DNA from: Actinomycetota bacterium | GTDB lineage: Bacteria > Actinomycetota > Acidimicrobiia > Acidimicrobiales > RAAP-2 | DNA: 64,000 bases | NCBI GenBank assembly: GCA_009699875.1 | Contig: WLNI01000001.1 | Coordinates: forward strand, 372,001-436,000 | Reading direction: 5' to 3' | Part shown: positions 46,033-64,000 of the stretch, one piece after another | Layout: each line of letters opens with the position of its first letter | Numbering within the stretch: the stretch's first letter is position 1 | Program-made: the position numbers and the translations under genes | The notes under the pieces: model-generated | Database searches by the model: none | What the model saw: the letters and a program-made list of their open reading frames with translations, nothing else | What the model was told of the DNA's origin: nothing

Positions 46033-47142
46033 TCAGACCTCGATATCTCGAGGAAGTCCTAAGACCTTTTCCGCAATGATGGAGCGCTGAACCGCAAATG
46101 TTCCGCCGCCAATCGTGAGCGCAGGCGAATAAAGAAACCCATGAAGCCACTGATGCTCAGCTGAGAAGGGCTCCGCTTGACACATCGCACGCGCTCCCAT
46201 GAGGTCAAGGGCAAGATTCATTGCGTCTTGACCGAGGTCGTCAGCAAGCGCTTTGCGAGTCGACGCCTCAGGTCCTGGGGTCTGTCCGGCAATGGCCGAT
46301 GAGACAAGTCGTAATTTGAGCGCTCGAAGGGCTTGTGCCCTCACCCACAGAGCGGTGACACGCTCTCGAAGAAGTGGCTTGTCTTCAAGGTGACACGATC
46401 GAGCAAATTCGAGAAGTTGATCAATCGTTGGACCACTCCCCCATAAGAGACCTTCGCCAGAGAGCGACACGCGCTCGTTCGACAGCGTGACCTTGGCCAA
46501 CCTCCAGCCATCATTCACATCCCCGATGACATTGTCATGAGGAATCCTGACGTCATCGAAAAACACTTCATTAAATGCATGGTCACCCGTCATGTCGATC
46601 AAGGGCCGAATTGAGATACCGGGAAGATCCATCGGGCACACAAAATAAGTAATTCCATGATGGCGTTCGGCCTCGGAATTTGTTCTCGCTAATAAAATCC
46701 CAAACGATGCGATGTGGGCTCCACTCGTCCACACTTTTGAGCCGTTCACCACCCACTCATCACCATCTCGAACGGCCGTCGTCAATAACGCAGAAAGATC
46801 TGAGCCAGCGGAAGGCTCAGAAAAGAGTTGGCACCAAAACTGCTCTCCAGAAATCAATGTGGGAAGCCAGCGATCCTGCTGCTCTTTAGTCCCAGCGGCC
46901 AACAATGTAGGACCTGCCCATCCGATCCCAATGGGGTTGATGGGACGGCGAATCTTTGCCTTTGAGAGCACCTCGTCAATGACGAGTTGCTCTTCGGGGT
47001 CCGCCCCAATCCCCCAGGGGGACGGCCAGTGTGGGGTCACATAGCCAGCAGCCGCCAAGTCGGCTCCTGTTGGCTCAGGGTGGGCTTCGAGCCAGTCGTT
47101 GAGGTCCTCTCGGATTGAATGTTCCCTTTTCACGTCTGCCAT
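46033..47142 (-). CDS. Acyl-CoA dehydrogenase family protein
   Basis: CQLFSEPSAGSDLSALLTTAVRDGDEWVVNGSKVWTSGA, LTIGGGTFAVQRSIIAEKVLGLPRD. Confidence 0.92.
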   Translation of the reverse strand: MADVKREHSIREDLNDWLEAHPEPTGADLAAAGYVTPHWPSPWGIGADPEEQLVIDEVLSKAKIRRPINPIGIGWAGPTLLAAGTKEQQDRWLPTLISGEQFWCQLFSEPSAGSDLSALLTTAVRDGDEWVVNGSKVWTSGAHIASFGILLARTNSEAERHHGITYFVCPMDLPGISIRPLIDMTGDHAFNEVFFDDVRIPHDNVIGDVNDGWRLAKVTLSNERVSLSGEGLLWGSGPTIDQLLEFARSCHLEDKPLLRERVTALWVRAQALRALKLRLVSSAIAGQTPGPEASTRKALADDLGQDAMNLALDLMGARAMCQAEPFSAEHQWLHGFLYSPALTIGGGTFAVQRSIIAEKVLGLPRDIEV

Positions 47143-47213
47143 GTCTGTAGCGTAGGCTCGCCGCCAACTCCTCGCTACCATTTGGAGTCAACGCCAAGCA
47201 AGGGGGAAATTGA

Positions 47214-48833
47214 ATGTCGAGTTGGAACTATGCCGACGTTTGGGAAGAAATTGCCAAGATCCAACCGGAGCAGCCCGCCATTGTCCAGGGTTCTCGAACC
47301 ATCTCATGGGGGGAGTTTGAAGAGCGTTCTCGAGGGGTCGCTGACTGGATGCTCTCGCTCGGTGCTCAGTACCAAGACAAGATTGCTCTCTACCTTTACA
47401 ACAGTCCTGAATATATGGAAGGAACCTTCGCCGCATTTCGTACCGGCCTCGTCCCAGTAAACACGAACTACCGGTACGGAAACGAGGAGCTTCTCTATCT
47501 TTGGGAAAATGCTGACGCTCTTGCCGTTATTTTTCATGGTTCCTTCGCCGAACGAATCGAATCGATAAAGGACCAGTGCACAAAAGTAAAAGGGTGGCTC
47601 TGGGTTGACGACGGTGCAGGCCCTTGCCCTGCGTGGGCAACGCCCTACGAGAGCGTGACCAGTGAGGTTCCAAACTCACTCGACTTCGAGTGGTCTCGAA
47701 CTGCAGACGATCTTTTGATGCTCTATACCGGTGGGACAACCGGCATGCCCAAAGGCGTCATGTGGCGTCAAGACGATCTCTTTGTGCTCGTCAATGGCGG
47801 AGAGACCGGTCGCTACGACACGACGAAAGGCGTCGATGATGTCACCAGGGTTGTCACGTCGCAGGGTCCGGGCATGACACTGCTTCCCGTCTGCCCCCTG
47901 ATGCATGGAACAGGGATGTTTACAGCCCTCAAAATACTTTCTGAAGCTGGCCGCCTTGTGCTGATGGAAGATCGTCACTACGACCCAGAAACACTCGCTC
48001 GGACTATCGGTGACGAGAGTGTCAATGTCATCGTCATCGTTGGTGATCCATTTGCTCGCCCACTCGTAGATGTTCTCAATGAGCATCCAGATTCGTATTC
48101 GCTTGCGTCTCTCTTAGTCATCATGTCGTCGGGGGCCATGTGGAGTGAGGACGTCAAGCAAGGACTTTTGTCACATAATCCCAACATGATGTTGATCGAT
48201 GCATTCTCTTCTTCAGAAGCACTTGGCATGGGGAGTTCAGTTTCAACGGGGAACTCTGCGGCCGCCACTGCGGAGTTCAAACTTGGTCCTCATGTTCGCG
48301 TGATTGATGAAGATGGAAACGATATTGCACCTGGCGCTGAGACGCCCGGTGTTTTAGCGCTCGGAGGGCGAAATCCTCTTGGGTATTACAAGGATGACGT
48401 CAAGACTGCAGCGACATTCAGAGTGATTGATGGAAAGCGCTACAGCGTCCCAGGCGACTTTGCCAAGGTTCACGAAGATGGGACCATCCAACTGCTCGGA
48501 CGCGGTTCACAGTGCATCAACACGGCTGGCGAAAAAGTATTTCCCGAAGAAGTTGAGGAAATATTGAAACGACATCCACAGATCCTTGACGCATGCGTCG
48601 TTGGAATCCCCGACCCAAAGACCGGAGAGCGAGTCGTTGCCGCAATTGAAGTGGAATCAGGCGCTGCCCCAGAAGCTGACGAGGTGATCACCCACGTGAA
48701 AGAACATCTCGCGCACTACAAGGCCCCAAAAAATGTGCGGATCGTTTCGACAATCGGACGCTCGCCATCGGGAAAGATGGACTACGGCCGTCACAAGACC
48801 GAAGCTATCGAGTGGATGGAGAGCCACAAATAG
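47214..48833 (+). CDS. Acyl-CoA synthetase (FadD family, adenylate-forming)
   Basis: LYTGGTTGMPKGVMWRQDD, INTAGEKVFPEEVEEILKRHP, RSPSGKMDY. Confidence 0.93.
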   Translation: MSSWNYADVWEEIAKIQPEQPAIVQGSRTISWGEFEERSRGVADWMLSLGAQYQDKIALYLYNSPEYMEGTFAAFRTGLVPVNTNYRYGNEELLYLWENADALAVIFHGSFAERIESIKDQCTKVKGWLWVDDGAGPCPAWATPYESVTSEVPNSLDFEWSRTADDLLMLYTGGTTGMPKGVMWRQDDLFVLVNGGETGRYDTTKGVDDVTRVVTSQGPGMTLLPVCPLMHGTGMFTALKILSEAGRLVLMEDRHYDPETLARTIGDESVNVIVIVGDPFARPLVDVLNEHPDSYSLASLLVIMSSGAMWSEDVKQGLLSHNPNMMLIDAFSSSEALGMGSSVSTGNSAAATAEFKLGPHVRVIDEDGNDIAPGAETPGVLALGGRNPLGYYKDDVKTAATFRVIDGKRYSVPGDFAKVHEDGTIQLLGRGSQCINTAGEKVFPEEVEEILKRHPQILDACVVGIPDPKTGERVVAAIEVESGAAPEADEVITHVKEHLAHYKAPKNVRIVSTIGRSPSGKMDYGRHKTEAIEWMESHK

Positions 48834-48884
48834 CCCATCGAATCAGGGCTTCAGGGTTATGGCGCGTTGACCGTGACGGACGAG

Positions 48885-48898
48885 TGCACTGTGTTCTA
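48885..48898. promoter_or_regulatory. Degenerate KstR-like half-palindrome upstream of FadD19-like gene
   Basis: TGCACTGTGTTCTA, identical to the 59786 site at 11/14 positions; right half GTTCTA intact, left AAC is ACT. Confidence 0.3.
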
Positions 48899-48906
48899 GT
48901 CTCTGC

Positions 48907-50520
48907 GTGGTGCAGTTCAATCTCGCAGATCTCTTCGAAGCGGCAGTCGACGCCTATCCTGAGCGTGAATATCTGATCGCTAATGGCGTCCGACGGACCT
49001 ACGCCGAAATGGAAGCTCGAGCAAACCGCCTTGCCCATCATCTGAGCGATGCTGGCGTTGGGCCAGGAGATCACGTCGGGATTTATGCCTACAACTCGGT
49101 CGAATGGGTAGAAACTGCCTGGGCTGTTTTCAAACTTCGAGCAATCTGGATCAATATCAACTACCGCTACGTCGAAGAAGAGCTTCGGTATCTCTTTGGC
49201 AACGCAGACTTGAAGGCACTTGTCCTCCAGCGAGAGTTTGCTCCTCGAGTCGCTGCACTCTTTGATGAACTCCCCACCCTTCATCATCTCGTCGTGATTG
49301 AAGACGGTTCAGGGGAAGAAAACCCCACCACCGATTCGGTGCTCTACGAAGACGCCATGGCAGGCGGGTCACCACTCCGTGACTTTGCTCCCCGCTCTGA
49401 GGAAGATCTCTACATTCTCTACACCGGTGGAACAACTGGTATGCCTAAGGGTGTTGTGTGGCAACACCGAGACGTCTTCTATGCGCTCGGTGGCGGTGTT
49501 GACCCAACGACGAATACTCGAGTGCTCGACCCCTCAGAGATGGTGGGAAAGGGTGCTGGGGGCGTCATCACCCACTTGCCGATTGCACCGCTTATGCACG
49601 GAGCCACCCAGTGGGCGGTCATGGGGCGAAGTTTTGTCGGTGATCGAATTGTCCTCATGGACAAGTTCAATCCAGATGACGTCTGGACACTGATTCAGAA
49701 TGAAAAGGTCAACTCCGTTATGGTGACCGGCGATGCAATGGCCAAGCCACTTATCGAGTCCCTTAGCGATGACTCTGGATATGATTTGTCGTCGCTTTTC
49801 GCCGTCGTCTCATCTGCCGCTCTCTTTAGTGCTCCGGTAAAAGATGAATTCTTCAAGCGTTTCCCAGATCTCTTCATCACCGACGCCATCGGATCGTCAG
49901 AGAGTGGCAACAACGGGATGACAATGATCTCCAAGGACAACACAGCTATGAAATCCGGTCCTACGGTGAGCATCTTGGGCGACACGGTCGTCTTTGATGA
50001 GGACCTCATCCCAGTTGTTCCTGGCTCTGGTGTTATCGGAAAGATCGCGCGCTCTGGGGACATCCCCGTGGGGTACTACAACGACCCCGTAAAGACTGCG
50101 GAGGTCTTCTTTGAAGTCGAAGGTACTCGCTACGTCATGCCTGGTGATTTTGCAACCATTGAAACTGACGGATCGGTCACCCTCTTAGGTCGAGGTTCGG
50201 TGGTTATCAACTCTGGGGGAGAAAAAATCTTCCCCGAAGAGGTTGAGTCAGCAGTTCGATCTCATCCTGATGTCTTTGACGCCATCGTCGTCGGTGCCCC
50301 CGACGAGCGCTGGGGACAAACAGTCGCAGCGATCGTGGCCCTACGAGAAGAGCATTCACTCAATCTCGCTGCACTACAGGACTATTGTCGCAACAAAGTC
50401 GCAGGGTACAAACTCCCTCGCCGCCTCTTTGTAGTTGACACAATTCAACGATCACCAAGTGGAAAACCTGATTATCGATGGGCAACCACTATCGTTGAAA
50501 CGCTTGAACCCCACGTCTGA
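48907..50520 (+). CDS. Acyl-CoA synthetase, FadD19-like
   Basis: FNLADLFEAAVDAYPEREYLIANGVRRTYAEME, ININYRYVEEELRYLFGNADLKALV, LYTGGTTGMPKGVVWQHRD. Confidence 0.88.
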   Translation: MVQFNLADLFEAAVDAYPEREYLIANGVRRTYAEMEARANRLAHHLSDAGVGPGDHVGIYAYNSVEWVETAWAVFKLRAIWININYRYVEEELRYLFGNADLKALVLQREFAPRVAALFDELPTLHHLVVIEDGSGEENPTTDSVLYEDAMAGGSPLRDFAPRSEEDLYILYTGGTTGMPKGVVWQHRDVFYALGGGVDPTTNTRVLDPSEMVGKGAGGVITHLPIAPLMHGATQWAVMGRSFVGDRIVLMDKFNPDDVWTLIQNEKVNSVMVTGDAMAKPLIESLSDDSGYDLSSLFAVVSSAALFSAPVKDEFFKRFPDLFITDAIGSSESGNNGMTMISKDNTAMKSGPTVSILGDTVVFDEDLIPVVPGSGVIGKIARSGDIPVGYYNDPVKTAEVFFEVEGTRYVMPGDFATIETDGSVTLLGRGSVVINSGGEKIFPEEVESAVRSHPDVFDAIVVGAPDERWGQTVAAIVALREEHSLNLAALQDYCRNKVAGYKLPRRLFVVDTIQRSPSGKPDYRWATTIVETLEPHV

Positions 50521-51197
50521 TGGCAGTCTTGCTGCAAGACGTCCTGAAAGCTCAAGGTCGCTCCAACAAACTCAGTGCGCTCCCGTGTGCGGTGGTGACA
50601 ATGGAACTCCAACGAGGCGTGATGGGAGATCTTGCCTCGTTCCCTGACCTCGCTGCAGTTGCCAAAAGCGTGGGGGTCCCAGAACACGCTGGCGAGTTAG
50701 CTGCACTCGCTCGAGAACTCCATATCCCTGTTGTCCACTGCACGGCTGAGTTTCGAAGTGACCGTGCAGGGACGTTAACCAATACTCCGCTCCACACCAC
50801 CCTTTTGCGAAACCCCGCGCACCTCCTAGAAGAGACTCCCGCTACGGAATTAATCCCAGAGCTCAGGCTCTCTCCTGCTGACATTGTTCTTCCTCGTCGC
50901 CATGGCGTCTCCCCGTTCACTGGGACGAATCTTGATGCCACCTTAAGAAACCTTGGAGTACAGACGCTCATTGTCACTGGCGTCTCACTCAATATTGGAG
51001 TGATCGGACTCTGCATCGAGGCAGTCAACCTTGGCTACAGCGTTGTCATTGCGACTGATGCGGTGTGTGGGGTCCCCCTCGACTTTGGTCAAGAGATTCT
51101 TACCCATTCTCTCCGTCTTCTCGCCATATTGGCAACGACCGCAGAACTACTTGTCGCCCTGCGTAGCGAAGGTGCCTCGGGCCAAGATAACCTCTAA
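50520..51197 (+). CDS. Isochorismatase-like (cysteine hydrolase fold) protein lacking the catalytic Cys
   Basis: Fold motifs HIPVVHCTAEFRSD and GVSPFTGTNLDATLRNLGVQTLIVTGVSLNIGVIGLCIEAVNLGYSVVIATDAVCGVP; start overlaps the upstream stop. Confidence 0.82.
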   Translation: MAVLLQDVLKAQGRSNKLSALPCAVVTMELQRGVMGDLASFPDLAAVAKSVGVPEHAGELAALARELHIPVVHCTAEFRSDRAGTLTNTPLHTTLLRNPAHLLEETPATELIPELRLSPADIVLPRRHGVSPFTGTNLDATLRNLGVQTLIVTGVSLNIGVIGLCIEAVNLGYSVVIATDAVCGVPLDFGQEILTHSLRLLAILATTAELLVALRSEGASGQDNL

Positions 51198-51201
51198 TCC
51201 A

Positions 51202-52908
51202 ATGTCTCCCCCGGACGAACCCACCCCTGAACATCCCCTCGGCCAGCCTTCTCCAGGCTCTGAGGTTCCCGTGGCTGACACCGCGACTCCGAATGAATCC
51301 TCAAAGGCTCCAAAAGGGCCTCAGCACGCTGCAGCAAAGAAACGGCGGAGATTTTGGCCACGTCGACGATGGGTGCAAGTTGTCACCATTGTGGCCATCG
51401 TGGTGGTCCTTCTCCTCGCTGCTCTCGCTGGATATGCCTACTACCAAGCCAACCGAATCAATCACGTCGACGTCAACGGCCTCACTGCAGAGACCAGTTC
51501 GGGCGCTGGCAAAGGCACTGAAAATATCTTGATGGTGGGATCAACCGATCGTTGTGCTTTAAAAGTACAAAACCCCATCTACGGAATCTGCTCCCAGGGT
51601 GTCACTGGTGTCAATAGTGACGTCATCATGATTCTGCACCTTGACTGGACGACTTCAAAAATGTCAGTGCTTTCGATTCCTCGAGACACCTTCATTCCAA
51701 ATGCTCGATCCACTGGTCCCAACAAAATCGACGCAGCCCTCTCTGAGGGTCCCACGCAGTTGGTCAAAGCAATTCAAGAAGATTTTGGGATTCCCATCCA
51801 ACACTTTGTTGAGTTGAACTTCGAAACCTTTGCGAGCGTGGTTGACGCCCTTGGTGGTTTAAATATGTATTTCCCAATGCCCGTCTATGACGCATACTCA
51901 CAGCTCCACCAACTCACTCCGGGCTGCGTGAAGCTCAATGGAACTGAAGCTCTCGCCGTTGTCCGAGCACGTCACCTTCAGTACCAATCGAGTTCTGCAA
52001 ATGGTTCCAACCCTTCGAACTGGCCGCAAGAAAACTTAAGTGACCTTGCCCGTATTCGTCGAGATCACGAGTTTCTCCGCGTGTTGGGTGATCAAGTGAA
52101 AAAACAAGGACTGGGCAATCCAATTACCGATGCAAAATTGGTGAATGCCATCGCTCCCCAACTCACCGTCGACCAAGGTTTCTCAACGAGCCACATGATT
52201 GCGATGATTGGTCAATTCCAAGGAACAGACGCATTTAAGACACCGCAGTACACACTTCCTGTGATGACGTCGACCTCGTTCTCGTACGTGTACCAGGGCT
52301 ATAACTACGGCAACGTGACCTTTCCCGTTAATGGCGAGGGTCTGGCGACAATTGGGGCGTTCCTTAACCTTCCACCTTTGACAAATACGATGACCGGTCA
52401 ACCGCTGCCGAGCCCTTCAGCAACGAACGTGAGCATTTTGAACCAAAGTGGAATCTCGAGTGCGGGAGATGCTGCTTCGACGGCGATGAAGGCACTTGGC
52501 TTCAACGTCTCTTCTGTGACGCAAGGAACGCCACCAGGAAATCCCGCAGAGACCGTGGTTGCCTATAACTCTCTCAACCCAGATGTCATCGCCCAAGCTC
52601 AAATGGTATTGAGATCGATGTCCGGACAGACCATCATGGCCTACGAACCGAATTTAACGAGCCCGGTGACCTTGATGTTGGGTTCGACGTACTCCATCTA
52701 TACCCCAGAAATCTTTTTGCCATTCACCACACCAACAACCAAGGCAAACAACACAACAACAACGATGAAGGCTTCAAGCACTACGACAACAACGGCACCT
52801 TCGACGACGACGACCATTCCTGGCTTTTCTGCACCGAATAGCTCAACGACAAAACTCGAGCCATGGGATCCTCGGTCCTGCAATAAGTCCGGAGGGGCTG
52901 GTCCCTAG
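51202..52908 (+). CDS. LytR-CpsA-Psr (LCP) family protein with LytR_C domain
   Basis: One TM after basic segment KKRRRFWPRRR; NSDVIMILHLDWTTSKMSVLSIPRDTFI, KIDAALSEGPTQLV, LNGTEALAVVRARHL; Thr-rich C-terminal tail. Confidence 0.9.
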   Translation: MSPPDEPTPEHPLGQPSPGSEVPVADTATPNESSKAPKGPQHAAAKKRRRFWPRRRWVQVVTIVAIVVVLLLAALAGYAYYQANRINHVDVNGLTAETSSGAGKGTENILMVGSTDRCALKVQNPIYGICSQGVTGVNSDVIMILHLDWTTSKMSVLSIPRDTFIPNARSTGPNKIDAALSEGPTQLVKAIQEDFGIPIQHFVELNFETFASVVDALGGLNMYFPMPVYDAYSQLHQLTPGCVKLNGTEALAVVRARHLQYQSSSANGSNPSNWPQENLSDLARIRRDHEFLRVLGDQVKKQGLGNPITDAKLVNAIAPQLTVDQGFSTSHMIAMIGQFQGTDAFKTPQYTLPVMTSTSFSYVYQGYNYGNVTFPVNGEGLATIGAFLNLPPLTNTMTGQPLPSPSATNVSILNQSGISSAGDAASTAMKALGFNVSSVTQGTPPGNPAETVVAYNSLNPDVIAQAQMVLRSMSGQTIMAYEPNLTSPVTLMLGSTYSIYTPEIFLPFTTPTTKANNTTTTMKASSTTTTTAPSTTTTIPGFSAPNSSTTKLEPWDPRSCNKSGGAGP

Positions 52909-52996
52909 CATTGAGCCTCTTCCCTGAGGCATCCTCCTCCTCGTCTAGATTTGCGACGTAGATCTTGGAGATTCCGACAGGGCAAGAGAAAGGGTA

Positions 52997-54682
52997 ATGG
53001 GACTTATGGTTGATACAAGCACCATCGCTGGGCTCATTCATGCCCGACAAGATGACGAGAACGTTGGAATTCTGAGCGCAGACGGCGACTTGACACACTC
53101 ACGTGTTGTCGAATTGGCAGCACAGCGCGGTACGTGGCTAGCGAAAAACCGGCTCCCCGGTCCATTTCATATCGCAGTGCTGTCCGATAACTCCGTTGAG
53201 TACCTCTTGTGGCTCGAAGCAGCTGCGCTTGTTGGGGCCTGCGTGGTCGGAGCAAACACGACCCATAGAGGCGATGAGTTGGCTCGAGACCTTGCTCACA
53301 CAGAGTGCCAACTTCTCATCACTTCGCCTTCCTACTCCCCTCTTGTTGCCGGGCTTGACCTTGGACCCGCACTCGGAACGGTCCATGAAGATAACCAGCG
53401 AGTGCTGACCTTGGGCTCAGACGGCTTCTATGAGAACCTCTTGCCTTTCGAAGGGGCCCGGGCATCTGACTTGCCTAGTGATGACATCTCTGCATCCACT
53501 CTGGGCTATCTGTTGTTTACCTCGGGCACTTCTGGCGCACCAAAGGCCGTGAAGTGTTCTCAGGGACGCTTAGCGATGATCTCTGGGATCGTTGCCCAGA
53601 TGTACGCTCTCACTCCCGACGACGTCTGTTATGCCGCCATGCCTCTGTTCCATTCAAATGCACTGATGGCTGGATGGGGGCCCAGTTTGGCGGGGGCATC
53701 TGCCGTCGCAGTCCCCAGCACCGAGCGATTTTCAGCCTCTGGCTTTCTCCCCGATGTTCGCCGTTTTGGGGTCACGTACTTTAACTATGTCGGCAAACCA
53801 CTCTCGTATATTTTGGCCACAGCTCAGCAGGATGACGATGCAAAGAATACCCTTCGCCAGTGTTTTGGAAATGAAGCCGCCCCAGATGACATCGACCGTT
53901 TTGCTCAACGCTTTGGATGTGCGGTCGCCGAGGCCTACGGCTCCTCCGAAGGGGGCGCCAACGTCGCTCGAACCCCTGACTCGCCTCCTGGCGCTCTTGG
54001 ACGGGCCCCAGAAGGCACACTCGTCCTTGACCCTGAGACTGGGGCAGAATGCCCGCCAGCTCAATTCGATGAATCGGGTCGACTCTTGAATGCAGAAGCC
54101 TGCATTGGCGAGTTGGTTTCCCTCTCGGGAGGGCAGTCGTTCGAAGGGTACTGGCAGAACGAAGAGGCCATGGAGGCTCGGCTGCGTGATGGCTATTACT
54201 GGACGGGAGACTTGGCCTATCGAGACGAAGCGGGTTTCTTCTACTTCGCTGGCCGGGACCACGACTGGATGCGTGTCGATGGCGAGAATTTCGCGGCCGC
54301 CCCAATCGAGCGAATCTTGCAGCGTCACGATGACATCGTCATCGCCGCGGTCTACGCCGTTCCTGACGAAACTGTAGGTGATCAACCAATGACCGCAGTT
54401 GAGTACGCCAAAGACCCGAAAGATTTTAATCCAGAAGCCTTTTCTGAATTCCTCTCCCACCAAGAGGATCTTGGGACAAAGTGGGCGCCGAAATACATTC
54501 GAGTTATGTCCACTCTTCCAAAAACCGCAACGTCGAAAGTGATCAAGAAAAGTTTGCGGGCCGAGCGGTGGAACACGCCAGAACGAGTGTGGTGGCGGCC
54601 AACAAAAGACCTTTCCTATGTGCTTCTTTCACCAGAAGAAGCAGTCCAGCTCAACGAACTGGTTCAAGACCGAGTGCTCTAA
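52997..54682 (+). CDS. Acyl-CoA synthetase, FadD17-like
   Basis: LWLEAAALVGACVVGANTTHRGDELARDLAHTECQLL, LLFTSGTSGAPKAVKCSQGR, YWTGDLAYRDEAGFFYFAGRDHDWMRVDGENFA. Confidence 0.87.
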   Translation: MGLMVDTSTIAGLIHARQDDENVGILSADGDLTHSRVVELAAQRGTWLAKNRLPGPFHIAVLSDNSVEYLLWLEAAALVGACVVGANTTHRGDELARDLAHTECQLLITSPSYSPLVAGLDLGPALGTVHEDNQRVLTLGSDGFYENLLPFEGARASDLPSDDISASTLGYLLFTSGTSGAPKAVKCSQGRLAMISGIVAQMYALTPDDVCYAAMPLFHSNALMAGWGPSLAGASAVAVPSTERFSASGFLPDVRRFGVTYFNYVGKPLSYILATAQQDDDAKNTLRQCFGNEAAPDDIDRFAQRFGCAVAEAYGSSEGGANVARTPDSPPGALGRAPEGTLVLDPETGAECPPAQFDESGRLLNAEACIGELVSLSGGQSFEGYWQNEEAMEARLRDGYYWTGDLAYRDEAGFFYFAGRDHDWMRVDGENFAAAPIERILQRHDDIVIAAVYAVPDETVGDQPMTAVEYAKDPKDFNPEAFSEFLSHQEDLGTKWAPKYIRVMSTLPKTATSKVIKKSLRAERWNTPERVWWRPTKDLSYVLLSPEEAVQLNELVQDRVL

Positions 54683-54688
54683 GCGCCC

Positions 54689-55873
54689 TTATCGGTCAGT
54701 GCTGAGAACAAGACCACTTGTGGGGACTCCGGTTCCCGCAGTCACAACAATATTCTCAAGAGATTCCACCTGGTTCACGGCGTGGCCTCGAACTTGTCGA
54801 ACAGCTTCTGCGATGCCATTCATTCCGTGGAGATAGGCCTCGCCTAGTTGACCGCCATGCATATTCATTGGAAGCTCTCCGCCAATTTCTAAGCGACCAC
54901 CTTGGATAAAATCTTTAGCTTCGCCCTTTGCACAAAAACCGAGTTCCTCTAACTGATAGAGCACGTAGGGAGTGAAGTGGTCGTAGAGGATTGCGGCATC
55001 CATGTCGCTTGGACCCATCCCACTTGTCTCCCAAAGTTGACGTGCCACCACTGACATCTCGGGAAGGCCCAAGAGGTCGTCGCGGTAGTAACTCGTCATC
55101 ATGTCTTGTCCCGCACCAGAGCCTTGGGCAGCAGCCTGGATGATGACCGGTCTCTGGGGAAGATCACGAGCGCGTTCTTTGCTGGTGACGACAATGGCCT
55201 GTGCGCCATCGGTCTCTTGACAGCAGTCCAGAAGGTGGAGCGGCTCAACAATCCAACGAGATGCTTGGTGTTCTTCCATCGTGATGGGTTGTTCGTAAAA
55301 CCAGGCCTTTGGATTCGTCGCCGCATGTTTTCTGTCGAGGACGGCAATTGTCCCAAGGTCTTCACTGGTTGCCCCCGTCATGTGCAGATAGCGTTGCGCA
55401 GCTAACGCGACCCAGGATGCTGGTGTCAAAAGCCCGACGGGCATATAGGTGGCGAGATGCGCACTTTCAGCGTTGGCCAGCGGCGGTCGTCCCTGGACCC
55501 CAGCGCCGAAACGGTTCCCGGAGCGCTCATTAAACGCTCGGTAGCACACGACGTAGTCAGCAACCCCTGCTTCGACCGCCAAGGCCGCTTGTTGAATTGT
55601 TCCACAGGCGGCTCCTCCGCCGTAGTGGATCCGGCTGAAGAACGTCAGCTCTCCCATGCCGAGGGAACGAGCGATATCAACATCAGGATTTGTATCAGAA
55701 GAAAAGGTCACCATCCCTGAAACGTCACTCGGCTGGATACCCGCATCATCAATCGCTGCTTTGACGGCCTCAACAGCGAGGCGGAGTTCCGAGCGACCAG
55801 AGTTTTTTGAAAATTCTGTGGCTCCAATGCCAACGATTGCTGTGTTGCCAGCAAAACTGTGCGCGCTCATCAA
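54689..55873 (-). CDS. ltp2: Thiolase-fold lipid-transfer protein, Ltp2-like (side-chain retro-aldolase)
   Basis: TAIVGIGATEFSKNSGRSELRLAVEAVKAAIDDAG, IHYGGGAACGTIQQAALAVEAG, NMHGGQLGEAYLHGMNGIAEAVRQVRG. Confidence 0.87.
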   Translation of the reverse strand: MMSAHSFAGNTAIVGIGATEFSKNSGRSELRLAVEAVKAAIDDAGIQPSDVSGMVTFSSDTNPDVDIARSLGMGELTFFSRIHYGGGAACGTIQQAALAVEAGVADYVVCYRAFNERSGNRFGAGVQGRPPLANAESAHLATYMPVGLLTPASWVALAAQRYLHMTGATSEDLGTIAVLDRKHAATNPKAWFYEQPITMEEHQASRWIVEPLHLLDCCQETDGAQAIVVTSKERARDLPQRPVIIQAAAQGSGAGQDMMTSYYRDDLLGLPEMSVVARQLWETSGMGPSDMDAAILYDHFTPYVLYQLEELGFCAKGEAKDFIQGGRLEIGGELPMNMHGGQLGEAYLHGMNGIAEAVRQVRGHAVNQVESLENIVVTAGTGVPTSGLVLSTDR

Positions 55874-56307
55874 ACTTCCTGCTTTGGAAGAGTGAGAGAA
55901 ACTGTTCCTACGACGTGATTCCCCATTGTGTTAGCACCAGCTATCGACACGTCAACAACTCCACGTGCGGGATCGACTTCATCGTCTCTGAGCGCGATCA
56001 CTTCGCCTGTGAAGACCATGGTGTCGTCTGGGTAGTTTGGGACGCCGAGGCGAATATCTACTCTCGATAAGAATCCCCCGGGACCAGTCCAATCAGTGAC
56101 GTATCGTCCAACAAGCCCATTGGTTGTCAGGATGTTCATAAAGATATCCTTACTCCCACGCTCTTTGGCAAGATCGCTGTCGTGATGAACATCTTGGTAG
56201 TCACGGCTCGCCACTGCGCCGGCCACAATCAAGGTCCGTGTGATGGGGATCGAGACCGTCGGCAGTTTCTCTCCAACCGACAGTGAAGGAAAAGTTCGAG
56301 TCTTCAT
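55870..56307 (-). CDS. chsH1: MaoC-like hydratase subunit, ChsH1-like
   Basis: VASRDYQDVHHDSDLAKERGSKDIFMNILTTNGLVGRYVTDWTGPGG; between ltp2- and fadE28-like genes. Confidence 0.85.
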   Translation of the reverse strand: MKTRTFPSLSVGEKLPTVSIPITRTLIVAGAVASRDYQDVHHDSDLAKERGSKDIFMNILTTNGLVGRYVTDWTGPGGFLSRVDIRLGVPNYPDDTMVFTGEVIALRDDEVDPARGVVDVSIAGANTMGNHVVGTVSLTLPKQEV

Positions 56308-57446
56308 TAGCGGTGCATGATCTCGTCAGGTCGTTGCGCAATAAGTGTGCCAAGGCGCGAGAGCTGGAGACTTGGGCTCCCGAGCTCAAGTTCAATCTGC
56401 TTGCCCCAAAGGAAGTACCGGTGAATTGGGTACCCAATATCTGCACCAGTTCCCCCGTGCAAGTGCTGTGTGGCATGAACAACGCGTTGACCACGGTCTG
56501 CTGCTTGCCATTTCGCCACTAATACGGACTCAGTAGCCGGAAGATTCCCATCAATCCGCCATGCCGCCTGCCATGCCGTGACTCGAATCGCTTCGAGGTC
56601 AATGGCCGCATCGGCAGCTCGAAGCATTGTCCCTTGGAAAGTAGAAAGCGGCCGGCCGAACTGTTCTCGTTCATTCAAATGCGCCGCCGTCTGGGCTAAG
56701 GCTGCTTCACAGACTCCGATTTGGGTCAATGCCAACGCCGTCATTGCACTGTCGAGCATGAACGCTGTCGCCTCCACCCCACGATCTGGTCCTGCCACCA
56801 GGTCGGCTGGACCAACCGCAACGCTGTCGAAATGCACGTGAGGGTGAACGGCTCGATTTGTCGTTTCCGCTCGCTCGAGTGTGACCCCACTCTGATTCTT
56901 CGAAATCATGGCAACGATCACTCCGTCGCCCTCGATTCGAACAGGAACCAAGATGGCGTCTGCCACGTGGGCAAACGGCACTGCGTTGGCTGTACCACTC
57001 ACGATCCACTCGGATCCTTGAAGAACCGCAGTGAGGGCAGGAAGTTGTCGTGGAGAGGTGCTCACGTCAGCGATCGCTGAGGTCAAGATGGCGTTGCCTG
57101 CAACGACCTGAGGGAGCCACTTTTCTTTTAACGGCGTGGGACCAAATTTTGCCAAGGGGAGGACTCCGCCGACAAGGGTGGCGAGCAGGGGAATTGGCGC
57201 CACAACTTTTCCTTGCTCTTCAAGCATCAGGCCGGCCTCAATGAGACCTCCACCGATCCCACCTAAGACCTCAGGAGTTCCTACGCCGAGTAGATCAGCC
57301 TCTGCGAGGGCACGCCAGAGTTCACGATCAACTCGATCCGTGGTGGCTTCGATCTCGGCAACTCGATCAGGCGTCACCATGCCAGCAAAAATTCCACTGG
57401 CGGTCTCTCGAATGGCATGTTGTTCATCAGTAAAATCAAAATCCAT
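56307..57446 (-). CDS. Acyl-CoA dehydrogenase, ChsE1/FadE28-like
   Basis: MDFDFTDEQHAIRETASGIFAG, ATQHLHGGTGADIGYPIHRYFLWGKQIELELG; start at MDFDF (57446). Confidence 0.87.
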   Translation of the reverse strand: MDFDFTDEQHAIRETASGIFAGMVTPDRVAEIEATTDRVDRELWRALAEADLLGVGTPEVLGGIGGGLIEAGLMLEEQGKVVAPIPLLATLVGGVLPLAKFGPTPLKEKWLPQVVAGNAILTSAIADVSTSPRQLPALTAVLQGSEWIVSGTANAVPFAHVADAILVPVRIEGDGVIVAMISKNQSGVTLERAETTNRAVHPHVHFDSVAVGPADLVAGPDRGVEATAFMLDSAMTALALTQIGVCEAALAQTAAHLNEREQFGRPLSTFQGTMLRAADAAIDLEAIRVTAWQAAWRIDGNLPATESVLVAKWQAADRGQRVVHATQHLHGGTGADIGYPIHRYFLWGKQIELELGSPSLQLSRLGTLIAQRPDEIMHR

Positions 57447-57459
57447 GAGATCTACTTTC

Positions 57460-58458
57460 CTATGAGGCTGCCGAGATAAAGATCGGCAGGCTGAGTTCAT
57501 CATCTAATTTGTCGATTCGTGCCTGAACACGCATTCCAATTGCGATCGAGTCAACGTCAAGATCCAAGTTCGCCACAATGCGTGTTCCCTCGTCTAAGGC
57601 AATCAACCCAATCGGGAGTGGGTACTCAAATGAAGGGACCTGTGGGTAGTGGACCACGACGAAGCTGTAGATCTCTCCTGCTCCAGCTGACTCAACGGTG
57701 TCCCACTCCAATGACCCACACGCGCCACAACCGGGCAGTGATGGATGGCGGAGCGTTCCACATTCTGTGCAGTGTTGAATCAGGAGTTTGCCGGCCTTGA
57801 GCCCTTCATAGAAATACTCATTATCTTGTGTGATGGCTGGGCGAGGCCGTGGCGGCATTGTCGGCGCTTGCGCACCAGGAGCGAACTTCAAAATACGAAA
57901 TCTCATTGTTCCAACGTGCTCTGCCGACGTGATTGCGTTGGTTCGACCTTCTGGATCCTCAGGGAACGAGTCATCAACAACGTAGAAGTCCGAGCGTGTG
58001 GTCGAAAACCGACCTACCCCAAGTCCTGTCTTTTTCACGTCGCTGATCGTTTCAATCACCGACGACACGGCAATGCGCTCGCCGGGCTTCAGGGGGCGAA
58101 GATACTCCTGCTCGCAGTTTGTTGCGACGACTGACGTAAAGCCTTCTTCATCTAAGAGTCGCATCATGCGATCGTTTGGGTGCTCGATCTCTTTTACTTG
58201 GCCACGCTGCGAATCGCGCTCAAGTGTTCCTGTGAGTCCCACCATTGACCACGCTTGGAGCATGGTCGGTGGAGCAATCACACTTTCGAGACCAACTTCT
58301 AGGGCGGCTCCAGCGTCAACGTAGATGGGATTGGCGTCACCCATTGCTTCAACCCAATGTCGAATCATTGGTTCATTCACTGGGTCAAGACCAACCCAAG
58401 GCGGACCGGTTGATTGACCAACGAGTTCAGCGAGCGAGTGGGAGTGGTCTTGGGTCAC
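57460..58458 (-). CDS. chsH2: MaoC N-domain plus DUF35 OB-fold fusion, ChsH2-like
   Basis: N-terminal MaoC region (GDANPIYVDAGAALEVGLESVIAPPTMLQAWSM), C-terminal rubredoxin-like CTECGTLRHPSLPGCGACGS plus OB fold. Confidence 0.9.
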   Translation of the reverse strand: MTQDHSHSLAELVGQSTGPPWVGLDPVNEPMIRHWVEAMGDANPIYVDAGAALEVGLESVIAPPTMLQAWSMVGLTGTLERDSQRGQVKEIEHPNDRMMRLLDEEGFTSVVATNCEQEYLRPLKPGERIAVSSVIETISDVKKTGLGVGRFSTTRSDFYVVDDSFPEDPEGRTNAITSAEHVGTMRFRILKFAPGAQAPTMPPRPRPAITQDNEYFYEGLKAGKLLIQHCTECGTLRHPSLPGCGACGSLEWDTVESAGAGEIYSFVVVHYPQVPSFEYPLPIGLIALDEGTRIVANLDLDVDSIAIGMRVQARIDKLDDELSLPIFISAAS

Positions 58459-58478
58459 GAAGGAGGTCCTGGAGTTAC

Positions 58479-59657
58479 TTAGCGCTTGGCGCGTTTCATG
58501 CCTAAGCCTGCCATGGCCAAGATCTCACGCTGGACTTCGTTGACACCGCCACCAAAGGTATTGATCTGAGCCTGACGTGCTGAGGTTTCTAAGCGACCTT
58601 CGAGAATGGCTCCTGGTGAATTTGGTGCGAGATACCCCGCTGAGCCGACGATGCCAAGAAGTAATCGGTAGATCTCAATGATGCGTTCTGTCCCAAAGAC
58701 CTTCATCGCCGAAGAGTCCGCAGCACCGACTTCGTCGCGAGCAACGAGGACCGCCATTCGCCAGTTCAGTAACCACATCGCTTGGAGCTCCGCGTCACAT
58801 CGAGCCAAGTCCTGAGAGACCCAGTCATGATCAATCACGCGAGATCCGTCATCAAGGACTGTCTCTCGAGCCCAGTCAGCCACCTGCGCAAAAAGCTTGT
58901 GTCCGAGTCCAGCCCAGGCGGCCAGGCCAACACGCTCGTGGTTGAGCTGCATGGTGATCATTCTCCAGCCTTCATTTTCCTGGCCAACCAACTCCGTGAC
59001 CGGGACTCTGACGTCTTGGTAGTAGGTCGCAGTCGTTGAAATACCACCAACCGTCATAATCGGACTCCACTCAAAACCTTCAGCAGAAGTTGGAACGCAG
59101 ATGATCGAAATTCCTTTGTGCTTCGGGGCATCGACGTCCGTGCGGCAGGCAAGCCAGATGTAGTCAGCATCATTGGCCCCCGAGGTGTAGATCTTGTTCC
59201 CGTTGATGACGTACTCGTCTCCGTCCTTGACCGCACGTGTACTCAGTGCAGCGAGATCTGTTCCAGCTTGTGGCTCGGTATAGCCAATAGCGAAGATCAA
59301 TTCACCGGCGAGAATCTTGGGAAGGTAAAACGATTTCATCTCATCGGTTCCGTACGTCATCATCGTTGGACCGACGGTATTGATCGTCACGAAGGGGAAT
59401 GGGGCCCCGGCTCGACGAGTCTCATCAAAGAAAATAAATTGGTCGGTCGCTGGTCGACCCTGACCACCAAACTCTTGTGGCCACCCAATACCGAGCCAGC
59501 CGTCTTTTCCCATGCGCATGACGACGTCTCGCCACACTTCTCCGCCTTCACCCGCCGCTGCGAGTCCGTCCCGAACCTCAGGGGTCAGGATCTCTTCGTA
59601 GTACGCGCGCAGTTCGTGGCGAAGTGCCATCTGCTCAGTTGTCTCTTCAAGGAACAT
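58479..59657 (-). CDS. Acyl-CoA dehydrogenase, ChsE2/FadE29-like
   Basis: GIGWPQEFGGQGRPATDQFIFFDETRRAGAPFPFVTINTVGPTMM, GYTEPQAGTDLAAL, NTFGGGVNEVQREILAMAGLGMKRAKR. Confidence 0.9.
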   Translation of the reverse strand: MFLEETTEQMALRHELRAYYEEILTPEVRDGLAAAGEGGEVWRDVVMRMGKDGWLGIGWPQEFGGQGRPATDQFIFFDETRRAGAPFPFVTINTVGPTMMTYGTDEMKSFYLPKILAGELIFAIGYTEPQAGTDLAALSTRAVKDGDEYVINGNKIYTSGANDADYIWLACRTDVDAPKHKGISIICVPTSAEGFEWSPIMTVGGISTTATYYQDVRVPVTELVGQENEGWRMITMQLNHERVGLAAWAGLGHKLFAQVADWARETVLDDGSRVIDHDWVSQDLARCDAELQAMWLLNWRMAVLVARDEVGAADSSAMKVFGTERIIEIYRLLLGIVGSAGYLAPNSPGAILEGRLETSARQAQINTFGGGVNEVQREILAMAGLGMKRAKR

Positions 59658-59708
59658 TAGATTCTGGCCTCCTTTAGCCTCTTGATCACTTTAGCGACCA
59701 GAGAAAAT

Positions 59709-59722
59709 GTAACATGTTCTAG
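59709..59722. promoter_or_regulatory. KstR-type operator, site 1
   Basis: TGTAACATGTTCTA is an exact match to TNNAACNNGTTNNA; 52 bp upstream of the fadE29-like start. Confidence 0.75.
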
Positions 59723-59785
59723 TTCTTAGGTACGAGCCTATTTTCGTAGCCTAAAGGCAAGACCTCTCTCCCCGGTTATCATCAC

Positions 59786-59799
59786 TGAAACGTGTTCTA
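59786..59799. promoter_or_regulatory. KstR-type operator, site 2
   Basis: TGAAACGTGTTCTA is an exact match to TNNAACNNGTTNNA; 36 bp upstream of the LLM start. Confidence 0.75.
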
Positions 59800-59834
59800 G
59801 CCGCTCGAGAGATCCTGGGGTAAGGAGGAGTTTC

Positions 59835-60728
59835 ATGCGGTTTCACCAGTCGGTGACGTTCTTAGAGATGGATGAGCTCCTCGATATCGCTCGCGTGAGT
59901 GAGGACCTGGGATACGACGGAATCTACGTCTCAGACCATCTCTTCAACCCTCGTTCCCTCGAGTCTCGCTACACCTATTCCAAGGCCGACGACGGCGCCC
60001 CCTTCTGGGAGAAGGACGAGTCCTGGCCTGACCCCATGACGTTGATCTCGGCCATGGCTGCGGTCACCTCACGGATCACCTTTACCACTGGCGTCTATAT
60101 CGCTCCACTCAGAGATCTCATTACCGTAACGAAGTCGGTTGGGACCACCGCTGTTCTTTCAAAGAATCGAGTGCGTCTTGGCGTCGGAGTCGGATGGTGC
60201 AAAGAGGAGTTCGATCAAACCGGCCAAGACTTCACTACTCGCGGAAAGCGTCTCGATGAGATGATCCCAGCGCTTCGAGCACTCTGGTCAGGAGGCTGGG
60301 TTGAGTACCACGGGGAGTACTACGACGTCCCTGAATGTCAGATCAACCCGTCGCCAACGCAACCAATCCCAATTCTTGGCGGCGGCCACTCTGCCCCCGC
60401 GTTCCGGCGGGCCTCGACACTCTGCGATGGATGGATCGCAGCGGGGGCCTACTCCGAGGAAGATGCCTGGACCCACCTGGCGACGCTCAAAGAACAGTTG
60501 GCAGCGAACGGAAGAGAGCATGATCCGTTTTCGATCTACATGTCGATCTTTGAAATACCCAATGTGGATCTCTATCGCCGATTTGAAGACGCAGGCGTCA
60601 CCGACTTGATCTGTGCCCCGTGGATGATGGTCCCACAAGACACACCCACGGAACAGCTTGCAGAAAAGAGAATTGAAGAGATGACCCGTTTTGCCGAGGA
60701 GATTATTATTCCGATGAAAGGAACCTGA
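59835..60728 (+). CDS. LLM class F420-dependent oxidoreductase
   Basis: LGYDGIYVSDHLFNPRSLESRYTYSKADDGAPFW, RVRLGVGVGWCKEEFDQTGQDFTTRGKRLDEM; strong SD AAGGAGGAG. Confidence 0.9.
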   Translation: MRFHQSVTFLEMDELLDIARVSEDLGYDGIYVSDHLFNPRSLESRYTYSKADDGAPFWEKDESWPDPMTLISAMAAVTSRITFTTGVYIAPLRDLITVTKSVGTTAVLSKNRVRLGVGVGWCKEEFDQTGQDFTTRGKRLDEMIPALRALWSGGWVEYHGEYYDVPECQINPSPTQPIPILGGGHSAPAFRRASTLCDGWIAAGAYSEEDAWTHLATLKEQLAANGREHDPFSIYMSIFEIPNVDLYRRFEDAGVTDLICAPWMMVPQDTPTEQLAEKRIEEMTRFAEEIIIPMKGT

Positions 60729-60729
60729 G

Positions 60730-61764
60730 ATGAAAGATCTGAAACTTGGACTCCAACTTGGTTACTGGAGCGCGGGTCCTCCACCGAACGCCACTGAACT
60801 CGTCGCCGAAGCGGAACGCTTAGCGTTCGACTCAATTTGGACCGCTGAATCCTATGGATCAGATGCACTGACACCTCTTGCCTGGTGGGGAGCTGCAACA
60901 AACAATGTCCGACTTGGCACGTCACTCTGCCAACTTTCCGCTCGCTCACCTGCTGCGATGGCCATGGCAGCCATGACACTCGATCACCTCTCTGGTGGAC
61001 GATTTGTCCTCGGGCTTGGCGTCTCTGGGCCACAAGTAGTCGAAGGTTGGTATGGAGCCCCGTTTCCAAAGCCACTGGCGCGAACCCGCGAGTACGTCGA
61101 CATCGTTCGCAAAGTCCTGTTGCGCGATCAGCCCGTCACAAACGACGGAGAGCACTACCCTCTCCCCTATCCCGGTGGGATGAATCTTGGCAAGCCCCTG
61201 AAATCGATTGTGCATCCCCTCCGCAACGACATCCCCATCATCTTGGGGGCTGAAGGTCCAAAGAACGTGGCGTTGGCGGCCGAAATCGCGGATGGGTGGT
61301 TTCCCATTTTCTTTGCCCCGAAGGCCATGGGGAGTTTTCAAGCTGCACTTGACGAAGGATTCGCCCGGGAGGGAGCTCGACGAAGTGCAAAGGATTTCGA
61401 AGTCTTAGCCTTTGCTCCCACCATCATCCACGATGACGTGGAAGCCGCTGCTGATCTCTATCGACCAGCAGTCGCCCTTTACGTTGGTGGCATGGGAGCC
61501 AAAGAGGTGAACTTCCACTTCGATGTCTTCTGTCGGATGGGCTATGAAGCCGAAGCCACCAAAATCCAAGATCTCTACCTTGATGGCAAGAAGGACGAAG
61601 CAGCTGCGGCAGTGCCAACACAGATGGTTGAAGACATCGCCTTGGTCGGACCAAAAGAGAAGATCCGAGATGATCTTGAAGGCTGGCGTGAGTCGATGGC
61701 AACGTCACTGTTAATTAACGGCGACATCGCCACCATGCGCACAATGGCCGAACTTCTCGGCTGA
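60730..61764 (+). CDS. LLM class F420-dependent oxidoreductase
   Basis: LKLGLQLGYWSAGPPPNATELVAEAERLAFDSIWTAESYGSDALTPLAWWGAATNNVRLGTSL. Confidence 0.9.
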   Translation: MKDLKLGLQLGYWSAGPPPNATELVAEAERLAFDSIWTAESYGSDALTPLAWWGAATNNVRLGTSLCQLSARSPAAMAMAAMTLDHLSGGRFVLGLGVSGPQVVEGWYGAPFPKPLARTREYVDIVRKVLLRDQPVTNDGEHYPLPYPGGMNLGKPLKSIVHPLRNDIPIILGAEGPKNVALAAEIADGWFPIFFAPKAMGSFQAALDEGFAREGARRSAKDFEVLAFAPTIIHDDVEAAADLYRPAVALYVGGMGAKEVNFHFDVFCRMGYEAEATKIQDLYLDGKKDEAAAAVPTQMVEDIALVGPKEKIRDDLEGWRESMATSLLINGDIATMRTMAELLG

Positions 61765-61771
61765 GGTTTCT

Positions 61772-62908
61772 CTAGGCGCTTGCGGCCATGCTGGCGCCGA
61801 TTGCCAACACGTTGGCCGTTGCCCCACCGAGAGTTAATTCAATCTGGCGGGTGAGCAAGAAAAAACGATGCAAGGGATAGTCGCGGTCAACGCCGACGCC
61901 ACCGTGGACATGGGTTGAGGCGTGCACAACACGCTGCCCCCCATCTGCGGCCCAGAACTTCGCGATTGCTGTCTGATCAACGGCGTCGAGGCCCTCGCTG
62001 ATTCGCCAGGCGGCCTGAAGAGCGGTGAGGCGAATTGCCTCTGCATCGACGTAGGCATCAGCCATACGCTGGCCGACGGCCTGAAACGTGGCGATCTTCT
62101 TATCAAACTGTTCTCGCTCTGAGGTGTACTCCGCACCGAGACGAACTGCTGAGGTCACCGCTCCGGCTTCCATGGTGCACAACGCTGAGGTGTAGCGAGT
62201 CACAATTGACGAAAGAATCTCCGCTCCATCTGCCTCCGTACCACCGAGCAAGTTCGATGCATCAATCTTTACGTCTTTCAAGGTGACGATGGCCTCTGGA
62301 CGAGATGCGGCGTCTTGTCGTTCTGTTGTGACTGCATCTGCGGTCACCAAAAACACACCGACGTCCCCCGAAGCCAAGGTGGCCGGAATGAGAAAGAGGT
62401 CTGCTCGAAGCCCCGAGGCAACACATGCTTTGGTTCCATTGAGAACAAAACCACCATCAACACTCTGTGCGGTCGTGGTGGGAGCCGACATCGCGTCCGC
62501 AACAAGTTCTCCTACGAGTTCCGCTGTCGTGACCGTGGCGACGACTTCTCCCGCTGAAATCTTTGGAAGCCACTGAGACTTTTGGTCGTCAGTAGCAAAA
62601 CGCGCCAATGTATCGGCGACCCCCACCAAGGTTTCGACGACGGGGGCATACGCTGCGGTGAGACCTGCGACTTCAATAATTTGGCTCAGGGCAACAAAAT
62701 CGAGGCCAGCACCTCCGTACACTTCAGGTAATCCAATGCCGAGAAGCCCTGCATCTGCGAGCGCAGACCACAGCTTCTCGTCAAAGGGGCCTCGTGCATC
62801 GTCTGCAGTTTCAATTTCCTTTAAGCGCTCAAGCGTTGCCTGTCCCGTGAAGATCTGAAGGGCGAGATCCCGGACGGCTTGTTGTTCTTCTGTGAGTGAA
62901 AAATCCAT
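61772..62908 (-). CDS. Acyl-CoA dehydrogenase, alpha-type partner (FadE26/27 pair-like)
   Basis: MDFSLTEEQQAVRDLALQIFTGQATLERL, ASTHVHGGVGVDRDYPLHRFFLLTRQIELTLGG. Confidence 0.88.
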   Translation of the reverse strand: MDFSLTEEQQAVRDLALQIFTGQATLERLKEIETADDARGPFDEKLWSALADAGLLGIGLPEVYGGAGLDFVALSQIIEVAGLTAAYAPVVETLVGVADTLARFATDDQKSQWLPKISAGEVVATVTTAELVGELVADAMSAPTTTAQSVDGGFVLNGTKACVASGLRADLFLIPATLASGDVGVFLVTADAVTTERQDAASRPEAIVTLKDVKIDASNLLGGTEADGAEILSSIVTRYTSALCTMEAGAVTSAVRLGAEYTSEREQFDKKIATFQAVGQRMADAYVDAEAIRLTALQAAWRISEGLDAVDQTAIAKFWAADGGQRVVHASTHVHGGVGVDRDYPLHRFFLLTRQIELTLGGATANVLAIGASMAASA

Positions 62909-62926
62909 GAGGTTCCTGTTCTGTCG

Positions 62927-64000
62927 TTAGCGGAGGGAGCGGGGCATATTGAGTCCAAAGATCGCAATGAGATCTCGTTGGATCTCATTGGTTCCACCCC
63001 CAAAGGTGAGGATGACCATGGTTCTGGCGTACATCTCTAAGCGCCCGGCAATAACTGCGGCTGGACTCCCTCGCTTCAAGTAGCCCGCTTGTCCCACCAC
63101 TTCCATGAGAGAGCGGAATGCTCGGAGGTAGTACTCAGTTCCAAAGACTTTGATAATTGAGGCATCAGCGACGTCAAGCTCACCTTGTGTTGCTTGCCAG
63201 GCAACTTTCCAGTTGATGAGTCGAAGGAACTCGAGCTCAGCACTGAGTCTGCCTAGGTGTTCCTGGACCCACTCTTGGTCGATGACTCGACGCCCATCGG
63301 GAAGAGCCGTCTTCGCGGCCCACGCGGTCACGTCAGTGATACAGCGATCAATAATTCCAGGGGCGCACAAGGTCACGCGCTCACGATTCAGTTGGCTCGT
63401 GATCAAGTTCCAGCCCTGATTCTCAAAACCAACCAAGTTTGCAGCCGGCACTCGCACGTCACGGAAAAACGTTGAATTGATGTTGTGCGATGAGGTCAGG
63501 TTCAATGGAACAACTTCGATTCCTGGAGTATCCATCGGAACAACAAAGATCGAAATACCTTTGTGCTTGGGCGCCTCTTGGTCAGTGCGAGCCGCTAGCC
63601 AGATGTAGTCCGCGTCGCCAGCCAAACTCGTCCATGTCTTTTGACCGTTGATGACGTATTCGTCGCCGTCTTTCTCGGCTTTCGTGGTGAGCGACGCCAA
63701 GTCTGTTCCCGCTCCAGGTTCGGAGTATCCGATACAGAAGTGCACGTCACCAGCGAGAATCCGAGGCAAGAAGTCAGCTTTGAGCTCGTCAGAGCCCCAC
63801 TCCATGATGGTCGGCCCAACCGTGTTAATCGTGAGCATGGGAACCGGGGCTCCAGATCGCATGGACTCGTCAAAGAAAATTAACTGTTCAATTGCACTTC
63901 GTCCTTGGCCTCCGTACTCCTTCGGCCAGCCAATGCCCAGCCACCCGTCGGTCGCCATCTGTTTCACGACCGATCGGACCGTTGGCCCTATGCCGTTTGA
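62927..64000 (-). CDS. Acyl-CoA dehydrogenase, N-terminus truncated by window edge
   Basis: GIGWPKEYGGQGRSAIEQLIFFDESMRSGAPVPMLTINTVGPTIM, GYSEPGAGTDLASL, LTFGGGTNEIQRDLIAIFGLNMPRSLR; frame open to 64000. Confidence 0.88.
   Translation of the reverse strand, partial: SNGIGPTVRSVVKQMATDGWLGIGWPKEYGGQGRSAIEQLIFFDESMRSGAPVPMLTINTVGPTIMEWGSDELKADFLPRILAGDVHFCIGYSEPGAGTDLASLTTKAEKDGDEYVINGQKTWTSLAGDADYIWLAARTDQEAPKHKGISIFVVPMDTPGIEVVPLNLTSSHNINSTFFRDVRVPAANLVGFENQGWNLITSQLNRERVTLCAPGIIDRCITDVTAWAAKTALPDGRRVIDQEWVQEHLGRLSAELEFLRLINWKVAWQATQGELDVADASIIKVFGTEYYLRAFRSLMEVVGQAGYLKRGSPAAVIAGRLEMYARTMVILTFGGGTNEIQRDLIAIFGLNMPRSLR

Follow-up and report, generated by a model that had tools for sequence, protein, structure and literature searches.

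A predicted KstR-type-regulated sterol side-chain module, probably decoupled from ring cleavage, in a 1.97-Mb Actinomycetota genome

The window analyzed here is a stretch of 64,000 nucleotides (contig WLNI01000001.1, positions 372,001 to 436,000) from the genome of an Actinomycetota bacterium, the assembly of which (GCA_009699875.1) comprises 1.97 Mb in 4 contigs and is 91% complete. From position 46033 onward it carries a cluster of genes for the degradation of steroid side chains, centered on a five-gene operon. We consider it probable that this cluster is a sterol side-chain module under KstR-type control that is decoupled from ring cleavage, with degradation ending at a 17-ketosteroid and the ring skeleton being left for other microbes. 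The observations behind this proposal are the gene content, the orthology of the encoded proteins, their conserved catalytic residues, the operators, and the absence of three ring-degradation markers from the genome. The enzymes themselves are of already known kinds; what is new is that, in a genome of about 2 Mb, such a side-chain module is apparently controlled in the KstR manner and probably not coupled to ring cleavage.

Results

The core operon

A sequence-only reading of the window had placed ltp2-, chsH1-, fadE28-, chsH2-, and fadE29-like genes side by side on the minus strand between 54689 and 59657, and all five were found at these positions when each gene product was compared with curated protein families and with solved structures. 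The genes overlap or almost touch. Ltp2 (54689-55873), the retro-aldolase acting on the C3 steroid side chain, matched 6ok1_A (E=5e-180) and scored 670 bits with NF005892 (cut-off 469). It is 69% identical to its counterpart from Thermomonospora curvata (TcLtp2; 66-69% for steroid Ltp2 enzymes overall), and in a FastTree phylogeny it fell within a single tight clade with the Ltp2 proteins of T. curvata and of the bacterial family f78 (described below), with paralogues far outside. Residues Y297DHF and Y347 align with the catalytic Y294DHF and Y344 of TcLtp2 (PMC12329534), i.e. both the base motif and the second catalytic Tyr are kept.

The catalytic MaoC hydratase subunit ChsH1 (55870-56307; 4wnb_B/4w78_B, E~7e-35) carries the KDIFMNILTTNGLV stretch and retains the Asp/His dyad (RDYQDVHHD, compared with RDFQDVHHD of the solved ChsH1). 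Its partner ChsH2 (57460-58458) is composed of an inert MaoC domain and a DUF35 part with zinc ribbon and OB fold (4wnb_A, E=6e-33; 6ok1_B, E=2e-35; PF12172, PF01796). The MaoC domain, which includes the sequence GDANPIY, has a Tyr where His is expected; both the dyad of ChsH1 and the Tyr-for-His replacement of ChsH2 have been described (PMC11321319). The zinc ribbon is of the C4 type (C-x2-C-x10-C-x2-C), which is found in the partners of Ltp2, while those of Sal have C3H1 (PMC12329534). The MaoC/DUF35 fusion and the ChsH1 motif, which the sequence-only reading had called characteristic, were seen in Pfam and solved-structure matches as well as in the alignment.

The two remaining genes encode a pair of ChsE-type acyl-CoA dehydrogenases (ACADs). 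The large, FadE29-type subunit (58479-59657) is 50% identical to mycobacterial FadE29, and its top solved match was the steroid ACAD Tcur3483 (6wy8_B, E=3e-153), with the nearest ACAD beyond the two steroid ChsE structures reaching only 3e-39. The small, FadE28-type subunit (56307-57503), which shows ACAD domains without a match to the middle domain, clustered with FadE28-type subunits in the ACAD tree. A phylogeny joining these proteins to non-steroid ACAD or MaoC families had been named in advance as an outcome that would speak against a steroid function; instead, the trees, the supports of which come from FastTree only, group them with steroid enzymes. Identity, catalytic residues, and trees thus support the view that the operon encodes true steroid enzymes.

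Comparison with known systems and with relatives

The window shares with the mycobacterial igr operon and KstR regulon orthologous Ltp2, ChsH1, and ChsH2, and paired ChsE genes. The order differs: here it is fadE29-like, chsH2, fadE28-like, chsH1, ltp2, with no CYP125 gene in the operon, whereas the mycobacterial order, for which the comparison rests on one reference genome, is cyp125, fadE28, fadE29, chsH2, chsH1, ltp2, so that the FadE28-type gene is differently placed. The best structural matches came from T. curvata (6ok1, 6wy8); that bacterium, however, can grow on cholate and possesses C/D-ring genes (PMC4810484), whereas KstD, KshA, and HsaC are missing here. The bile-acid enzymes of Comamonas (Shy-Sal, ORF40-44) follow a similar logic of a hydratase and a DUF35-bound aldolase, but Sal has YDCY and C3H1 in place of the YDHF, second Tyr, and C4 zinc ribbon of the Ltp2 type present in the window.

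The nearest named relatives of Ltp2 come from boreal-lake and peat metagenome-assembled genomes, several of them titled Acidimicrobiaceae or Acidimicrobiales, which would make the bacterium one of the Acidimicrobiia type. According to tblastn maps, relative L023 keeps the whole cluster in identical order apart from an extra insertion of ~1.2 kb. The order of the five-gene core is retained in most relatives, and in several the large ACAD gene is relocated or replaced.

KstR-type operators

The mycobacterial KstR operator is TnnAACnnGTTnnA, with the core TAGAAC-N2-GTTCTA (PMC1995591); the search pattern was chosen first and then confirmed in that paper. The pattern TNNAACNNGTTNNA occurs twice in the 64 kb, compared with 0.66 occurrences expected, and both sites lie in the 177-bp divergent promoter (59658-59834) of the core operon, 78 bp apart. 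These predicted operators, both on the minus strand, are TAGAACATGTTACA (59708-59721), which is conserved in relatives L023 and L024, and TAGAACACGTTTCA (59786-59799), all 14 letters of which are contained in the published probe from M. tuberculosis Rv3545c/Rv3546 (PMC1995591). In the mycobacterial reference genome two sites stand 79 bp apart between fadA5- and cyp125-type genes, and paired sites are retained at the equivalent promoter in L023 and L024. A third KstR-type site was found just past the window, in the promoter shared by the ChsE4(fadE26)-like gene and a thiolase gene. Of the strict form of the pattern, TAGAACNNGTTNNA, chance predicts 0.017 copies per 64 kb; three were found in ~163 kb of DNA from this genome, all of them within the two divergent promoters of the cluster. 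The cluster is therefore apparently switched by a KstR-type regulator acting on the predicted operators.

KstR-like TetR genes adjoin the core in six loci of Streptosporangiaceae and in genome G139. A TetR gene located beside a P450 gene (locus L170) was considered as KstR and rejected, its product being only 25% identical over 76 residues. The strict operator was absent from the stretches around three CYP125-like P450 genes, and no exact KstR2 operator occurs in the cluster, the single exact match (15258) lying far off, inside the open reading frame 14054-15421. Three other genomes of the class (loci L015, L016, and L017) have KstR-type operators within ~1.5 kb of KshA-like genes, which suggests that a KstR-like switch may also control ring hydroxylases there; one of them, G188, has a ChsH1-like match of 125 bits, and the other two have weak ChsH1 matches.

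Ring-degradation markers

No ring-degradation or Mce4 genes had been visible in the window, and the sequence-only reading expected them elsewhere in the genome. Whole-genome searches did not bear this out, as neither HsaC (NF045631) nor KshA (PF19298, KshA_C) gave a match at E<=1e-3. For KstD, the only full-length PF00890 proteins were SdhA and NadB, and a mycobacterial KstD query retrieved nothing at E<=1e-40. Mce proteins (PF02470, MlaD/Mce domain) were likewise absent from the genome. Since mce4 is restricted to mycolic-acid bacteria, the missing Mce says little; the same study found 55 of 57 Streptomyces to be without steroid pathways (Bergstrand et al., PMC4810484).

The sister genomes G047 (97% complete) and G231 (94%) also had no KshA, HsaC, or KstD. 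Neither HsaC over the cut-off nor KstD was detected in the sisters G313-G315. In G313-G316 and G319-G322 no KstD was found, and the only HsaC hit at E<=1e-10 was a weak one of 42 bits in G315.

Across the phylum, HsaC exceeded its cut-off in 13 of 397 genomes. All 13 belong to family f78, which, judged from its steroid cluster, we read as Mycobacterium/Rhodococcus-like, and all 13 have Ltp2, i.e. the positive control works. Ltp2 itself was present in 35 of the 397 genomes, 13 of which had HsaC over the cut-off; among those outside f78 (Acidimicrobiia-type, f73, and others) the count was 0 of 22. Of the 27 genomes of the class with strong ChsH1 (>=140 bits), only 4 had so much as a distant HsaC-like protein. 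Outside f78 the side-chain module is therefore commonly decoupled from HsaC. The decoupling is not universal for other markers, as some of these genomes outside f78 carry KshA_C or KstD-like proteins. All seven genomes of f73 (G361, G439, G458, G488, G507, G517, and G660), a family that is likely Streptomyces on grounds that include its named Ltp2 relatives, have two Ltp2 family members over the cut-off and no HsaC over the cut-off, and five of the seven encode a KstD-like protein with an identity of >=55%.

Flanking genes

The core had been described as flanked by FadD17- and FadD19-like ligases and, from 61772, by a second ACAD pair, which was confirmed by profile and structure matches. On the plus strand are two FadD19-like acyl-CoA ligases (47214-48833 and 48907-50520; NF005863, 611 and 733 bits, cut-off 543) and a FadD17/CasI-like steroid acyl-CoA synthetase (52997-54682; 599 bits with the CasI model NF052587, cut-off 900, and 495 bits with the FadD17 model, cut-off 850). 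Beyond the divergent promoter follow an LLM-class F420-type oxidoreductase (59835-60728, plus strand; TIGR03619, 205 bits, cut-off 167) and an LLM-class F420-dependent oxidoreductase of the Rv3520c family (60730-61764, plus strand; TIGR03559, 474 bits, cut-off 335), a family also present in the mycobacterial KstR regulon. The second ACAD pair, on the minus strand, consists of a ChsE5 (FadE27)-like protein (61772-62908), which lies in the small-subunit branch of the ACAD tree, and a ChsE4 (FadE26)-like large subunit (62927-~64102; 4x28_A, M. tuberculosis ChsE4/FadE26, E=7e-124), the gene for which starts 102 bases past the window end (window-equivalent 64102); the thiolase gene is divergent from it. 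At the other edge, a single-length FadE34 (ChsE3)-like ACAD (46033-47181, minus strand) is 43% identical to a 705-aa mycobacterial FadE34-type protein and falls in the same group of the ACAD tree.

An isochorismatase-like hydrolase (50520-51197, plus strand; PF00857), syntenic in L023, L025, L035, L125, and others, and a LytR-CpsA-Psr (LCP) protein (51031-52908) have no obvious role, and both keep their position in the lake relatives L023, L025, and L035. The window also encodes two sulfatases (29223-30791 and 32177-34465); in relative L028, sulfatase-like genes whose products are 34-39% identical to these two follow soon after Ltp2, a possible hint at sulfated sterols as substrates. At least 12 P450 genes, an unusually high number, are present in the 1.97-Mb genome, one of them in the window (40928-42121). 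Three P450s of the genome (L105, L109, and L111) share ~40% identity with mycobacterial CYP125; for the one at L111, CYP124 was the nearest of the solved structures.

Discussion

These findings led us to propose the following route. The end of the side chain (C26) would be oxidized by one of the three CYP125/CYP124-like P450s encoded elsewhere in the genome, and the FadD19- and FadD17/CasI-like ligases would form the CoA thioesters. By orthology, dehydrogenases of the ChsE4/E5, FadE34, and ChsE1/E2 types may serve the C8, C5, and C3 rounds, respectively. Judged by orthology and conserved active sites, ChsH1-ChsH2 would then hydrate the C3 side chain, and Ltp2 docked on the DUF35 of ChsH2 would carry out the retro-aldol split to propionyl-CoA and a 17-ketosteroid. 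Because the genome is without KstD, KshA, and HsaC, the ring skeleton would most likely not be opened through any known route and would be released or left to other microbes. The steroid side-chain role assigned by the sequence-only reading was strengthened by orthology, active-site residues, and KstR operators. That reading had also held that missing ring genes would refute it; the absence of the three markers sought disfavors full sterol mineralization but does not disfavor the side-chain function.

Several points weigh against this proposal. The search for ring genes covered KstD, KshA, and HsaC, leaving HsaA, HsaB, HsaD, and IpdAB unsearched. Ring genes also tend to lie close to one another, so that in any single genome, and this one is 91% complete, the missing part could hold all of them. 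No KstR protein was matched in the stretches of this genome that were examined, the whole genome not having been searched for it; KstR is part of the mycobacterial system. The FadD17/CasI-like ligase scores under the equivalog cut-off of both models. The thiolase past the window end was rejected as FadA5 (266 bits, cut-off 515) and passes NF005890 instead. Finally, neither a dedicated uptake system nor an exporter was identified.

It is conceivable, though in our judgment unlikely, that the bacterium is a full steroid degrader, either with ring genes that the assembly fails to include or with those of an as yet unknown, non-homologous pathway. The incompleteness of the genome and the narrow marker search leave room for it, and Acidimicrobiia-type relatives with KshA_C genes exist, some with KstR-type sites nearby (L015-L017). 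It is opposed by the more complete sisters G047 and G231, by the results for G313-G316 and G319-G322, and by the lack of any KstD-like flavoprotein beyond SdhA and NadB. The last point speaks against the anaerobic 2,3-seco route as well, because AcmB is a 3-ketosteroid delta1-dehydrogenase (PMC6208644). The proposed module could also act on side chains of bile acids or C24/C22 steroid acids instead of alkyl sterols. The top-scoring model for the FadD17-like ligase is CasI, a steroid-22-oyl-CoA synthetase, and T. curvata, from which the solved Ltp2 comes, uses cholate but not cholesterol for growth (PMC4810484); yet the ChsE4/E5-type pair, which is for C8 side chains, the three CYP125-like P450s, the KstR operators, and the lake and peat origin of the named relatives make such a substrate rather improbable.

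More remote still is the trimming of another polycyclic isoprenoid of like local geometry, e.g. the C-21 side chain of a hopanoid, by a module including its KstR-type switch, to give a ring ketone such as trisnorhopanone (trisnorhopan-21-one). The decoupling from steroid ring genes would fit, as would the relatives from lake and peat, habitats in which hopanoids are expected. It has been suggested that steroid degraders might feed on organic matter rich in sterol- and hopanoid-like structures (PMC5790920). However, Ltp2 shares 66-69% identity with steroid enzymes and falls among them in a single orthologous clade, KstR operators are present, and we found no literature on such a pathway, trisnorhopanone included. 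If true, the substrate would be a lipid abundant in peat and lakes, as hopanoids are, and the microbial source of ring ketones like trisnorhopan-21-one would be explained.

We therefore favor a sterol side-chain module without ring cleavage. Side-chain stripping followed by sterane export by some bacteria or fungi has been proposed for sludge (PMC6208644); we found no paper linking side-chain-only stripping to Acidimicrobiia genomes, subscription journals being mostly outside our search. If the proposal is true, lakes and peat would hold bacteria that convert sterols to androstane-type 17-ketosteroids and thereby feed ring degraders. Surveys of steroid degraders in the environment look for ring genes, KshA and HsaC among them, and for this reason side-chain-only genomes would be missed. 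A division of labor has been suggested for sludge (PMC6208644), and the genomes, operators, and markers described here make it testable. The KstR-type control further suggests that the regulon reaches beyond mycolic-acid bacteria.

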